A DNA stretch of 32,992 nucleotides from Clostridiales bacterium GWE2_32_10 (GTDB lineage Bacteria; Bacillota; Clostridia; Lachnospirales; UBA12420): NCBI GenBank assembly GCA_001797255.1, contig MGOW01000075.1, forward strand, positions 8,472-41,463, given 5' to 3'. Below the pieces are notes generated by a model. It did no database searches. It was not told the origin of the DNA and saw only the letters and a program-made list of their open reading frames with translations. The translations under genes and the position numbers were made by a program. Positions 13,914-30,379 of this stretch are shown piece after piece (the first letter of the stretch is position 1; each line of letters opens with the position of its first letter).

Positions 13914-14521
13914 TTATAAATTTTCAGTTAATACAAACCTCCACAGCTTATCCTTATACTCCTCTGCATAATCTATGCCAATCCGCTTTGTTTTTGTGAT
14001 GCTTAACTTTTGCTTTTGCTGGTTTTCACATATATATAAGTCATCCCCTAGTAAATCTTTATTATTCATTGATTTATCTATATTCAAAGCTTTACATAGC
14101 TTTCCAGGACCATTCGAAATATTATCTAGCTGATGTTTAGTATGTTTTCACTTTTACTATTATACCTGTTTTTAAATGCAATTTCAAGTCCTTTTTTAAT
14201 TTTTATTCCACGAATAAGTACAGCACACGGATTACCTATATCTTCGGTAACTACATTCAAACAATAATACATACCATAAATCAGATATACATACGCATGT
14301 CCCGCCTCACCATATAGAGTTTCTGTTCTATTAGTTCGCCTATCTCCATATGCATGACACGCTTTATCAGATACTCCACAGTATGCTTCTGTTTCGGTTA
14401 TGATTGCTACTATCTGGTTGCCGTCGTATTCTCGTATTAGTAGCTTGCCGATGAGGTCTTTTGCTACTTTTAGAGTGGGGCGGTTGTAGAAATCTTTGGG
14501 TAGTTTTTTTATGTTGTTCAT
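13914..14521 (-). pseudogene. 3-methyladenine DNA glycosylase (AAG/MPG family), interrupted by a one-base frameshift
   Basis: The first frame (14126-14521, 131 residues) carries the AAG hallmarks: ETEAY with the catalytic Glu (E45), ACHAYGDRRTNRTETLYGE, and AYVYLIYGMYYCLNVV. It then runs into a stop. The missing C-terminal third is present in another frame, directly continuing as KHTKHQLDNISNGPGKLCKA and ending RIGIDYAEEYKDKLWRFVL at a TAA at 13914-13916, with no internal stop. Adding one A to the A4 run at 14145-14148 restores a single 202-residue protein, the normal family length. AAG enzymes excise alkylated purines. The damage is recent, or is a homopolymer sequencing error. The start codon overlaps the DUF559 stop (ATGA), and its ribosome-binding site lies in repeat A. 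Confidence 0.9.
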
Positions 14522-14919
14522 CTCGGACTCACCCCTAACCCCTCTCTAAAAGAGAGGGGGACATCTAACTTTTGAGAGATTGTGTTTATTAGTTTTTCTT
14601 TCGCAGTTAATTCTTCATTTTTTATTCTTATTACTTTAATTCCCAAAGTGGTAATTAAATGGTCTCTTAATTTATCATATTCTTTTGTTTTATCGTGAAT
14701 ACTACCATCAATTTCTATTACTATCTTCTTCTCCTCACAATAAAAATCTGCTATAAAATATCTTTCTTGACCATAATACTCAATTTTTATAAGATGTTGC
14801 CTAAAAAATTTCAAATTACAAAATTTTCTACCTCTAACAATTTCCCAAAAAACTTTTTCAGATTTAGTCTGCTCTTTCCTTAACTTCCTCGCCAACTCCC
14901 TAGCCTCTAAATAAAACAT
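14518..14919 (-). CDS. DUF559 endonuclease-domain protein (Vsr-like / PD-(D/E)XK fold)
   Basis: 133 residues. Residues about 5-115 match the DUF559 pattern: RELARKLRKEQTKSEKVFWE, then FRQHLI, YFIADFYC (D58), IVIEIDGSIH (E69, D71), YDKLRD and GIKVIRIKNEEL. The family is related to very-short-patch repair endonucleases; the substrate is unproven. The start ATG at 14919 has a strong AGGAGG. The last 13 or so residues (PLSFREGLGVSPR) are encoded by inverted repeat A, so they are probably not part of the catalytic fold. The gene lies almost wholly between the two inverted repeats at 14525-14555 and 14953-14983, within an operon of unrelated genes. Its stop overlaps the start of the glycosylase gene by 4 bp. 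Confidence 0.85.
   Translation of the reverse strand: MFYLEARELARKLRKEQTKSEKVFWEIVRGRKFCNLKFFRQHLIKIEYYGQERYFIADFYCEEKKIVIEIDGSIHDKTKEYDKLRDHLITTLGIKVIRIKNEELTAKEKLINTISQKLDVPLSFREGLGVSPR
14525..14555 (-). repeat. Repeat A: 31-bp terminal inverted repeat with internal hairpin
   Basis: This is the exact reverse complement of 14953-14983. It includes most of a 21-nt hairpin (14539-14559) with a 9-bp stem CCCCTCTCT/AGAGAGGGG and AAA loop. Read on the minus strand it ends in GGGGTGAGT, which lies 6-7 nt before the glycosylase ATG and works as its ribosome-binding site. The same bases code for the C-terminus of the DUF559 protein. Confidence 0.92.
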
Positions 14920-14952
14920 ATTTTCCTCCTTTTTCTCCTAATCTCATTCCCA

Positions 14953-14983
14953 TCTCTTTTAGAGAGGGGTTAGGGGTGAGTCC
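14953..14983 (+). repeat. Repeat B: 31-bp terminal inverted repeat, opposite orientation
   Basis: Exact inverted copy of repeat A. Its internal hairpin continues to 14949 with one mismatch. On the other side GGGGTGA (14973-14979) pairs with TCACCCC (14984-14990) around a 4-nt loop, giving a second hairpin that contains the stop codon of the SbcC-like gene. Confidence 0.92.
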
Positions 14984-17590
14984 TCACCCCAGCTCCACAA
15001 CATTCTCCGTCACACTCTGGAACGTATCATCGTGGCTCACAATAATCAGCTGCCTAAAATTCGACCCTACCGACTCAATCACCTCAGCCAATCTCTCACG
15101 TCTACTTGCATCCATATTTATAGTCGGCTCATCAAGTATACCTATTCCAATCTTAGTCATAAGCTCTAGCATCGCTAGTCTTATAGCAAGGGCTGCGGTT
15201 ATTTGTTCTCCACCTGATAGCTGTTTGAATTCTTTCCTTATCTCTGTCCCACCTAGAATATCGTATAGAACCAGCTCGTAGTTTTTCTCCCACTCTAGTT
15301 TACTGCTGTCTATCGCTATTTTGCTGTATATTTCGGATGCTTTGTTGCTTATCCTTTTGATTAGGATCTCCGATATATGATCAGGTGCACTTTTTATTAT
15401 GTTTCTTATTTTTCGTATAACCTCATTTATTTTTTGCATCTTTTTTATTTTAACTTCATCTTCTTTTATAGTTTTCTTTACTCCTTTTAGATACTCTACC
15501 TCTTTGTTATATTTGGCGTTCTGCTGTTCTAATGTCTTTAGTTGTTCCTCTTTCTTTATTATTTCCTGCTTAGCAATTTCATATTTATATTTTTCCGTCT
15601 CATATTTATCTTTATCAAATGTTTTAGCTACCTCTTCTAATTCAGTTACAATTTTTCTAAGTACCTCATCCTTCTCAGCTTTATCCGTTACAAAAGCTTT
15701 GTGTTCCGAAACTAAAGTATCATATTTCCCAGCTTCAACCTTATTTATGATATATAGCTCATATGCTGGTTTTAACTGGCTTATTTTATTATCCATTTCA
15801 AGCTTCTTAATCTCTATATCCTTATATTTTTGTATATCTGCTGTCATCTTTTCTTTATCACTTCCAAGCTTTTCGAGTGCTTGCAGCCATTTATTCTTTT
15901 CCTCTTCCTCTTCCTTTATTTTGGATTGCTTAGCCTGATACTCTACCTTCTCTTTATCTAACTGCTTTTGTCTTTGATCTATCTCTGTTTTTTGTTTTCC
16001 TGCCTCCATACTTGCATCGGTATAGATTTTACTCATTTCTTCATATTTTTGCTTGTAGATTCTAAACATTTCATCTTCATCTATTACATCTAAAGATATA
16101 CTTTGCATCCTTAATATAATACTTTGTCTTAAACTTTCTATTTCATTTGTTATCTTCTTTATTTCTTCGTCTGAACTTTTCGACTCATCAAATTTACTAG
16201 ATATAAGTTCATTTGCTTTAGTTTTTATGATATTCACGTTTGCTAAAATGTTTTCATTTACACTTTCATCATCCTCTATTCCTTTTGCTGCTTTTTTTAT
16301 ATCTTCTATTCGGTTCAATTCTTTTTTGGGTTGTTCAAAGCTTTTCAAAAGCTTTAGAATATCTTTTTTTAGATGTGTCATTTTCATTATGCTTTCTGAT
16401 ATATATTCAACATTTACTTTCATTGATTTTAGTTCATTCTCAAGCTTTACTACATCCTCTGCTTTATTTATCACTATTTGCTTTAACCTTTCGATTTCTG
16501 TATTTTGTTCGATTAGCTCATCCTTTTTTTTGAGCAATTCTAGTCTTTGTATGTTCATAAACTTCTCTTTTTCATCTATTTTTGATTTTCCTGATTCTAT
16601 TCGCTTGTCTATTTGCATTAATGCCTCTTTTGCAGATAAAAATTCTTTAAATTTTTCTTCGCATACTTTCCTATCGACCTCTATCTTCAAATATTCAGTA
16701 TACTTACTTTCGTTTTCTCTAATCAAATTTAATGCTTTTTTAGAATTGTTTATATCCCTCTCTTTTTGCATAATATAGCCTAACAGCTTTTCTAATTGTA
16801 ACTCTGCTATTTTTTTATCGTTTTCTAATTTTTCAAAGGTTTTCTTTTTTTTATCTAGCGACTCATACTCTATCTTTAGGTTCTCGAAATTCTTTTTTAT
16901 TACAGTATATAGGTCTTTTTCTATCTTATCTTTATTCCTTAAATTCTGATACTCAATTTCAAGCTCATCTAATTTTTTAGTTTCTCCTAGCTTTATATTT
17001 ATATCATTTTCTAAATCTCTAATGTTAACCGCAATTCCTTTTTCTAACTGTATATTATCATACGCCCGCCTGTAGCTTTCTAGTTTAAAAATAGGATCAA
17101 AAATTCCCTTACGAGTTCTTTCGCTCTCAAGAAAAGCAACACTAAACTCACCTTGTGGTACACTTATTATATTAGTATATATATCACTTATATTATCATC
17201 TATGTAAAAATCAAGATGGTCTTTTAGCCACGCCCGCACCTCTTCATCTTTTGAAACTATAGCTATCTCTTCTGTATTATCAGACTTTTTTATGCTCCAG
17301 GTATTACCCGCACCTGAAACTGAAATCTTCCTATCTGCTATATATTCCTCACCATTTTTATCTACAAAAAATACTCTTACCTGTCCCTTTTTCTCACCTT
17401 TTCTGATGAAATACTGATCAAAGTTTTGTCGTGAGATTTTGTAATCAAACAAAGCAAAACCAATACTTTCTATAATAGTAGTTTTACCCGCCCCATTTTT
17501 ACCTGATATAAAATTAACACCATCAGATAATTCAATCACAACTTCATCATATTTCTTTATATTAAAAAGCTCAATCCTCTTAATTTTCAT
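14984..17590 (-). CDS. SbcC/Rad50/SMC-like coiled-coil ATPase without a zinc hook
   Basis: 868 residues from the ATG at 17590, chosen for GGAGG 5 nt upstream; another ATG 12 nt earlier is inside that site. The N-terminal ATPase half has Walker A GKNGAGKTT (residues 30-38). The C-terminal half has the ABC signature LSGGEQ (about 790), Walker B IGILDEP (about 812) and the switch histidine IVSHDD. Between them lie about 600 residues of Lys/Glu-rich coiled coil. SbcC and Rad50 carry a CxxC zinc hook at the coil apex; here the central region has no cysteine pair. No SbcD/Mre11 nuclease gene is adjacent. It likely acts in DNA repair or chromosome handling. It is the first gene of its operon, and its stop codon lies at the edge of repeat B. 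Confidence 0.85.
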   Translation of the reverse strand: MKIKRIELFNIKKYDEVVIELSDGVNFISGKNGAGKTTIIESIGFALFDYKISRQNFDQYFIRKGEKKGQVRVFFVDKNGEEYIADRKISVSGAGNTWSIKKSDNTEEIAIVSKDEEVRAWLKDHLDFYIDDNISDIYTNIISVPQGEFSVAFLESERTRKGIFDPIFKLESYRRAYDNIQLEKGIAVNIRDLENDINIKLGETKKLDELEIEYQNLRNKDKIEKDLYTVIKKNFENLKIEYESLDKKKKTFEKLENDKKIAELQLEKLLGYIMQKERDINNSKKALNLIRENESKYTEYLKIEVDRKVCEEKFKEFLSAKEALMQIDKRIESGKSKIDEKEKFMNIQRLELLKKKDELIEQNTEIERLKQIVINKAEDVVKLENELKSMKVNVEYISESIMKMTHLKKDILKLLKSFEQPKKELNRIEDIKKAAKGIEDDESVNENILANVNIIKTKANELISSKFDESKSSDEEIKKITNEIESLRQSIILRMQSISLDVIDEDEMFRIYKQKYEEMSKIYTDASMEAGKQKTEIDQRQKQLDKEKVEYQAKQSKIKEEEEEKNKWLQALEKLGSDKEKMTADIQKYKDIEIKKLEMDNKISQLKPAYELYIINKVEAGKYDTLVSEHKAFVTDKAEKDEVLRKIVTELEEVAKTFDKDKYETEKYKYEIAKQEIIKKEEQLKTLEQQNAKYNKEVEYLKGVKKTIKEDEVKIKKMQKINEVIRKIRNIIKSAPDHISEILIKRISNKASEIYSKIAIDSSKLEWEKNYELVLYDILGGTEIRKEFKQLSGGEQITAALAIRLAMLELMTKIGIGILDEPTINMDASRRERLAEVIESVGSNFRQLIIVSHDDTFQSVTENVVELG

Positions 17591-17631
17591 ATTTACCTCC
17601 ATTCAGCTATACCTAATTTTATTATACAACC

Positions 17632-30346: not shown

Positions 30347-30379
30347 ACTCACCTCCAACCCCTCTCTTAAAGGGAGGGG
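30347..30379 (-). repeat. Repeat C: solo, diverged copy of the DUF559-cassette repeat
   Basis: Reads ACTCACC...AACCCCTCTCTTAAAG on the plus strand, closely matching repeat A in sequence and layout. The hairpin at 30359-30379 has a 9-bp stem (CCCCTCTCT/AGGGAGGGG, one T-G wobble) and a 3-nt loop. It lies in the same orientation as repeat A relative to its downstream gene. It ends on the minus strand in GGAGGTGAGT, identical to the gdpP ribosome-binding site at 30326-30335. No nuclease gene accompanies it. Confidence 0.8.

Follow-up and report, generated by a model that had tools for sequence, protein, structure and literature searches.

A candidate minimal mobile unit: a DUF559 nuclease gene between inverted repeats of the BoxC/PIT type

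Among the described repeats, the closest to those considered here are the BoxC/PIT elements of Escherichia coli, whose triplex motif (TMECO) takes the form CCCTCNCCC-N3-6-GGGNGAGGG-N3-GGGNGAGGG, in which the second loop is TTA or CCG (Holder et al. 2015, PMC4666352). The same authors reported that inverted pairs in E. coli always combine one TTA and one CCG loop type, that the motif folds as a triplex in vitro, that it occurs in more than 260 genomes, and that BoxC/PIT elements block DNA polymerase in vitro (PMC4666352). No mobility function was found near the motifs, and both their mechanism and their origin were left unanswered (PMC4666352).

A comparable arrangement of repeats and enzyme is present in REPtrons, which consist of REP or REPIN sequences and a RAYT (TnpAREP) gene. 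Small repeats composed of a palindrome and a tail, also organized as inverted pairs (REPINs or BIMEs), occur throughout the genome, a single enzyme gene is situated between its own repeats, and the enzyme and the repeats co-evolve. REPtron tails are GTAG or CGTC, and the enzyme employs a Y1 HUH tyrosine. Palindromes are also inserted within proteins, as in the case of the Rickettsia palindromic elements. In addition, certain CGTC-tagged palindromic repeats are said to exist without a dedicated transposase (PMC3733652).

The window analysed in this study is a stretch of 32,992 nucleotides from Clostridiales bacterium GWE2_32_10 (contig MGOW01000075.1), and it contains two triplex-type repeats arranged as inverted copies on either side of a single small gene. 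Segment 14525-14555 is the exact reverse complement of 14953-14983, and the match extends to 35 nt at 97% when the full repeats are considered (14525-14559 on the forward strand and 14949-14983 on the reverse strand, at a spacing of 389 nt). Each arm comprises one hairpin and a 14-nt outer tail. In the left arm, the tail GGACTCACCCCTAA (14525-14538) precedes the hairpin CCCCTCTC-TAAAA-GAGAGGGG (14539-14559), and in the right arm the hairpin (14949-14969) is followed by the tail TTAGGGGTGAGTCC (14970-14983). Read on its G-rich strand, the repeat is CCCCTCTC-loop-GAGAGGGG-TTA-GGGGTGAG, such that the outer tail equals TTA-GGGGTGAG, and both arms are of type A (a ‘TAA/TTA’ second loop). The sole gene between the arms encodes a DUF559 nuclease of 133 amino acids (14518-14919, reverse strand; PF04480, E 1.3e-27). 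An earlier note on this DNA had reported exact 31-bp arms, an inner hairpin in each, and one small DUF559 gene between them, all of which proved correct. The same note described the gene as bounded by the repeats, and this can be retained only in the sense that the arms flank it; the gene does not sit in a closed cassette, because the reading frame crosses the left repeat, which encodes the C-terminus PLSFREGLGVSPR.

The unit lies tightly against both of its neighbours, which are context and do not belong to it. The TGA stop codon of the nuclease gene overlaps the ATG of the downstream gene for a methylpurine DNA glycosylase (MPG; 14126-14521, reverse strand; PF02245, E 9.4e-43), and the right arm terminates directly at the stop codon of the upstream gene for an SbcC-like SMC ATPase (14984-17602, reverse strand). 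Given this overlap, the abutment on the other side and the frame running through the left repeat, the unit is fitted between the two genes with neither of them broken at the junctions. A degenerate core pattern has three matches in the window, against 0.01 expected, namely both arms and a solo core, CTCACCTCCAACCCCTCTC, at 30348-30366 on the forward strand. At the SbcC/glycosylase junction, two congeners (G001 and G002) offered no clean empty site to compare with the window copy. Both retain the SbcC orthologue (L176 and L177), and the glycosylase region is located on other contigs; the junction has therefore been rearranged in these genomes, and a comparison of empty and filled sites is uninformative. 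Target-site direct repeats are not evident for the window copy, although inverted ends are present, and the same is true of a copy in another genome (G846).

Two further observations concern the window itself. In frame, the MPG open reading frame covers no more of the profile than positions 1-115 of 181, and MPG-like sequence seems to resume in another frame near 14060-14120, which suggests a frameshift (a pseudogene or an assembly error). Separately, the region from about 31220 to 32800 matches many places in the congener G001 (contigs C29, C30, C32, C41 and C42), and thus is a member of a multicopy family there.

The nuclease is of the stand-alone YcjD type, matching PF04480 over its full length with 96 bits against a cut-off of 20.6. 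Residues R14, E21, W25, Q41, D58, F59, V67, E69, D71, G72, H75, D82 and R85 are invariant in all 59 aligned members, and the window protein possesses the family-invariant E21, D58, E69, D71, H75 and D82. An AlphaFold2 model of the protein has a mean pLDDT of 81, with the repeat-encoded tail (126-133) disordered. The nearest structures by Foldseek are NGO0050 (3hrl) and the homing endonuclease I-Bth0305I (3r3p), which we take to be a Vsr-like EDxHD enzyme, following the class given in PMC9403480. The relationship to the latter group is supported by hmmsearch (3r3p, 7.7e-5) and by the Foldseek values (probability 1.00, E 1.4e-3). Judged from the model, the protein is a PD-(D/E)XK nuclease with a Vsr/EDxHD-like fold, and homing activity has not been demonstrated for it. 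The Vsr-like fold proposed earlier is thus right in general, and can be refined by naming the Vsr-like EDxHD homing endonucleases as the closest fold. A role as a defence gene was also considered and rejected, as PADLOC gave only weak matches.

The repeat is dispersed through the source genome. Its core, CTCACCCCTAACCCCTCTC, occurs 44 times in 1.87 Mb when up to three mismatches are permitted, with 22 copies on each strand, and a reversed control pattern has no matches in this genome. Copies often form inverted pairs of 112 bp, and alignment of nine pairs of 112-122 bp revealed a partly conserved interior. In eight of these nine pairs the loop types are mixed, one arm carrying TAA/TAG and the other CAG/CGA/CGG. 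Of 30 sampled repeat sites, 23 fall outside open reading frames of at least 120 amino acids. The genome encodes one short stand-alone DUF559 protein; two further DUF559 domains reside in long helicase-like proteins and are not accompanied by such repeats. Neither the repeat nor any DUF559 was found in two congeneric genomes. An RNA family was also considered and rejected, as Rfam gave no match.

These features identify the window repeat, by its sequence definition, as a member of the BoxC/PIT/triplex-motif family, with the reservation that the in vitro fold has been shown only for the E. coli motif. It has the three-block design of BoxC/PIT/TMECO and, like that motif, a TTA second loop (type A, with type B being CCG-like), mixed-type inverted pairs, and a mostly intergenic, dispersed, multicopy distribution. 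Of the earlier suggestion of an undescribed mobile cassette, the reading as a mobile unit is supported, whereas its repeats cannot be called undescribed. What differs from the published account of the motifs, near which no such partner was found (PMC4666352), is that a nuclease partner is now proposed.

We examined the generality of this association in 80 DUF559 loci, drawn from a wide range of bacterial phyla and from one archaeal genome. Within these loci, the strict core is 40 times denser at distances of up to 400 bp from DUF559 (69 matches in 87 kb) than elsewhere (24 in 1229 kb). A motif-free test detected inverted repeats around 43 of 78 DUF559 genes versus 11 of 976 random positions. 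In an enlarged set, 94 of 177 distinct DUF559 genes (53%) are flanked by inverted repeats that score at least 14, versus 19 of 1756 random positions, and among other small genes at the same loci the corresponding fraction is 4/439 (0.9%; odds ratio 123, p 2e-55 versus DUF559). No clear flanking inverted repeat exists for about 45% of DUF559 genes. The location of the arms at gene borders might suggest that they are merely ordinary terminator-like hairpins found at gene ends by coincidence. This proposal is scarcely credible, since it is statistically refuted by the gene-end control (4/439 versus 94/177) and does not account for the conserved third-strand tail or for the genome-wide copies. The three outcomes by which the earlier note would have been refuted did not arise: the repeat is dispersed in the genome, the congeners have neither unit nor repeat, and flanking repeats are common among DUF559 homologues.

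The association also holds at the level of whole genomes. The repeat is present in 40 of 50 DUF559-bearing genomes, with up to 218 copies, whereas the reversed control yields single matches in a few of the same genomes only. Among 398 genomes of the phylum to which the window belongs, more than one exact TTA core was found only in G000 and G263 (98 copies), each of which has one of the eight strong short DUF559 proteins of the phylum. In 369 Gammaproteobacteria, at least ten copies are present in 25 of 78 genomes with a strong DUF559 match versus 9 of 291 others (odds ratio 14.8, p 5e-12), and odds ratios for co-occurrence in this class range from 8 to 17. The CTCACCC-type core is missing from 25 of the 78 gammaproteobacterial genomes with strong DUF559, for which other repeat types or decay are possible explanations. 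Six gammaproteobacterial genomes carry 10-73 copies without a DUF559 match, and therefore repeats can exist in the absence of a detected nuclease. Several genomes are fragmented metagenome-assembled genomes, and relatedness was only partly controlled. Records of the window protein on mobile replicons are rare (27 plasmid and 2 phage), indicating that it is mainly chromosomal. As a separate observation, one betaproteobacterial DUF559 gene (L093, 9570-10800) is embedded among repeat cores that are arrayed in tandem on both sides of it, about 15 in all and every one in the same orientation.

The co-occurrence statistics would fit equally well if DUF559 resolved triplex or hairpin obstacles formed by the repeats, such that repeat-rich genomes retain the gene and any mobility is incidental; the in vitro block to DNA polymerase by BoxC/PIT elements (PMC4666352) is compatible with such a function. 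We judge this to be distinctly improbable, because it leaves unexplained why repeats lie beside and around the nuclease gene itself, as well as the bounded duplicates and in-frame insertions of gene plus repeats that are described below.

The DUF559 gene of E. coli is ycjD, which encodes 117 amino acids in strain K-12 and which many strains lack. A BoxC element lies just beyond its 3ʹ end and a second copy, inverted and degenerate, extends over its C-terminus; in a divergent allele, the C-terminal BoxC is complete. Among 59 genomes sampled evenly down a ranking, those with ycjD have a median of 22 repeat places, versus 8.5 in those without it (p 8e-10). Phylogroup confounds this contrast and the correction for relatedness is incomplete, and so we treat it as support, not proof. 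The E. coli genomes that lack ycjD (about 2,000) were considered as a source of empty sites and rejected; the alleles examined hold a TetR/RND-efflux island at this place, which implies replacement and thus offers no simple empty site. The fabI-sapF interval is dimorphic in this species (L050, 3041-3407, versus L335, 4195-12211), with ycjD and BoxC in about 62% of genomes and, in the remainder so far as examined, a TetR/RND/MFS efflux island.

Evidence of movement comes from intragenomic copies of the gene plus its repeats in which homology ends at the limits of the unit. Genome G529 has such a pair (98%, 534 bp) and a third copy at about 90%, and bounded copies were also found in G818 (90%, 626 bp) and G846 (84%, 513 bp). 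The three G529 units (L245, L246 and L212) possess extra outer terminal inverted repeats with arms of about 80 bp, and inspection of their borders revealed 9-bp direct repeats (GTTTGTAAC; GTTTTTAAC/GTTTGTAAC; GTGCAGATT). They are situated in palindromic repeats of that genome, for example GGTCAAGGTTTGTAACCTTGACC, and the G529 unit has no match among plasmids. Target duplications are known from this one lineage only, and its outer terminal repeats are ones that something else could move in trans. The terminal inverted repeats and direct repeats do resemble those of a classical element, and Legionella segments have been described that hold a transposase and DUF559 together (PMC12308824). It is therefore conceivable that the unit behaves like a MITE, with a transposase encoded elsewhere acting in trans and DUF559 being mere cargo. 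We find this unlikely: in these lineages it is the nuclease gene that the repeats enclose, the repeat type follows the nuclease clade across phyla, and the repeat varies in sequence with its architecture held constant.

Units have also entered genes. On a Synechocystis plasmid, a unit splits a gene for a DUF1156 DNA methylase, whose counterparts in Nostoc, Planktothrix and Calothrix are uninterrupted. Other units reside in frame and without stop codons inside MetH, leucyl-tRNA synthetase, UvrA and BioF, as well as inside HsdR (in an archaeon), HsdM, HsdS and several DNA methylases. Those in housekeeping enzymes (L086, 9948-10380; L098, L078, L080 and L309) derive from both isolate and metagenome-assembled genomes. 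Alignment to the solved MetH and BioF structures shows that the unit leaves both flanking halves of the host protein intact, and the in-frame repeats code for linkers such as PSPAGGRGAGGEG. The MetH insertions of Flavobacterium cucumis and of a Cytophagales genome occupy the same inter-domain linker. On a Pseudanabaena galeata plasmid (L338, 1879-6312), DUF559 is annotated in a 4.9-kb coding sequence beside the BREX gene brxC, and it is probably an in-frame insertion into a gene of the BREX locus.

The shared MetH linker is suggestive, and no more than that, of homing. A free-standing DUF559 might cut empty sites and land in or near pre-existing BoxC sequences, where it does no harm, with the repeats themselves spreading by other means. 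Its nearest fold is that of the homing endonuclease I-Bth0305I, DUF559 has been termed an EDxHD homing endonuclease (PMC9403480), and insertion sequences that target REP elements are known (PMC1525189). The unit shares with EDxHD homing endonucleases (I-Bth0305I), and with DUF559 proteins such as YcjD and NGO0050, a relationship of fold and sequence and the habit of insertion within genes. It differs from them in that no intron or intein is recognised, and in that its flanking dispersed repeats are also found without the gene. We consider homing into BoxC sites quite unlikely, given that the repeats are inverted on the two sides of the gene and are not halves of one interrupted repeat, that nuclease-bearing genomes have many more dispersed repeats, and that the repeat sequence co-evolves with the nuclease.

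Evidence for this co-evolution, and for the repeat structure involved, was obtained by comparing lineages. The stem varies (GAGAGGGG, GGAGGGG, AAAGGGGG, GGGAGAAGG, GGGGGAAGG and others), and the tail tracks it as a mirror image (GGGGTGAG, GGGGTGG, GGGGGATTT, GGATGAGGG and GGATGGGGG); in some lineages the second loop contains an additional small hairpin. Across 55 families, the mirror match between tail and arm is 0.890 for a repeat's own tail versus 0.754 (sd 0.012) for shuffled tails, and none of 10,000 shuffles reached 0.890 (p<1e-4). Selection on a third strand is the simplest explanation of the covariation between arm and tail, and its compensatory nature suggests that a triplex may be what the enzyme reads. 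Such covariation also widens the BoxC/PIT/TMECO family to variants such as AAAGGGGG...GGGGGATTT. On the nuclease tree, the repeat type changes 21 times, versus 37.4 times with shuffled labels (0 of 200 shuffles as low). Repeats with AAAGGGG map to one supported nuclease clade (9 of 12 members; branch 96 starred), which draws its members from Gammaproteobacteria, Nitrospirae and Deltaproteobacteria. When only pairs from different phyla or classes were compared, a Mantel test gave a weaker but positive correlation (rho 0.20, p 0.007). The tree rests on few columns and has many open forks, and the associations are not fully corrected for relatedness.

On balance, we regard the feature as most probably a copy of a widespread minimal mobile unit, in which a DUF559 gene is framed by inverted BoxC/PIT-type repeats, with the activity of the unit being inferred. 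Sequence comparison has established the association and its specificity, the dispersed copies, the bounded duplicates, the insertions into genes, the covariation and the co-evolution; movement of the repeats by the nuclease itself is inferred and has not been shown. The repeats could fold as a hairpin with a G-rich third strand, forming an intrastrand triplex. We infer that the nuclease would recognise the repeat, most likely in a folded single-stranded state such as could arise on the lagging strand, and would nick or cut beside the tail. Host repair or replication would then insert the DNA, whether released or copied, at another site. In this way the unit may spread within and between genomes, together with its non-autonomous derivatives, which include solo repeats and inverted pairs of about 112 bp. 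Insertions at gene borders and in inter-domain linkers presumably survive since translation can pass through the repeats in frame and meets no stop codon there.

A selfish unit of a nuclease and hairpin-bearing repeats, as the earlier note had proposed by analogy with REP elements and RAYT enzymes, is thus supported, with its autonomy remaining an inference. The unit matches the REPtron in its small palindrome-plus-tail repeats and their inverted pairs, in the single enzyme gene between its own genome-wide repeats, and in the co-evolution of the two. However, its enzyme is a PD-(D/E)XK/Vsr-like nuclease and not a Y1 HUH protein, its tail is a G-rich third strand and not GTAG or CGTC, and it is also found in frame within genes. 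Because the enzyme belongs to PF04480, has a PD-(D/E)XK-type fold and is no HUH enzyme, the unit falls outside the definition of a REPtron, although it seemingly works like one. Its repeats resemble the CGTC-tagged repeats in having no RAYT partner, and differ in tag and stem sequences and in their proposed link to a nuclease, no such link having been drawn for the CGTC-tagged repeats (PMC3733652). Insertion of a palindrome within proteins is likewise common to the unit and the Rickettsia elements, with different tags and stems.

No text in the open-access literature was found to join DUF559 or YcjD with BoxC, REP or triplex repeats; subscription journals were not covered, and a prior description is not excluded. 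We incline to the broader view that DUF559 proteins may be the mobilising enzymes of BoxC/PIT/triplex repeats across prokaryotes. They would then constitute a minimal mobile system of a distinct kind, in which the triplex is recognised by a single Vsr-like enzyme that carries itself, along with non-autonomous repeats, to new places, in-frame positions within essential genes among them. The nuclease is the first good candidate for the agent by which BoxC/triplex repeats spread, and it provides BoxC with a testable partner (YcjD) and the triplex design with a reason. The odd in-frame nuclease insertions in MetH, LeuRS, UvrA and restriction genes are accounted for in the same way. Such an activity would supply a function for DUF559, a common ‘domain of unknown function’, and would add a REP-like selfish system in which neither the nuclease nor the repeat structure is related to its counterpart in REPtrons.
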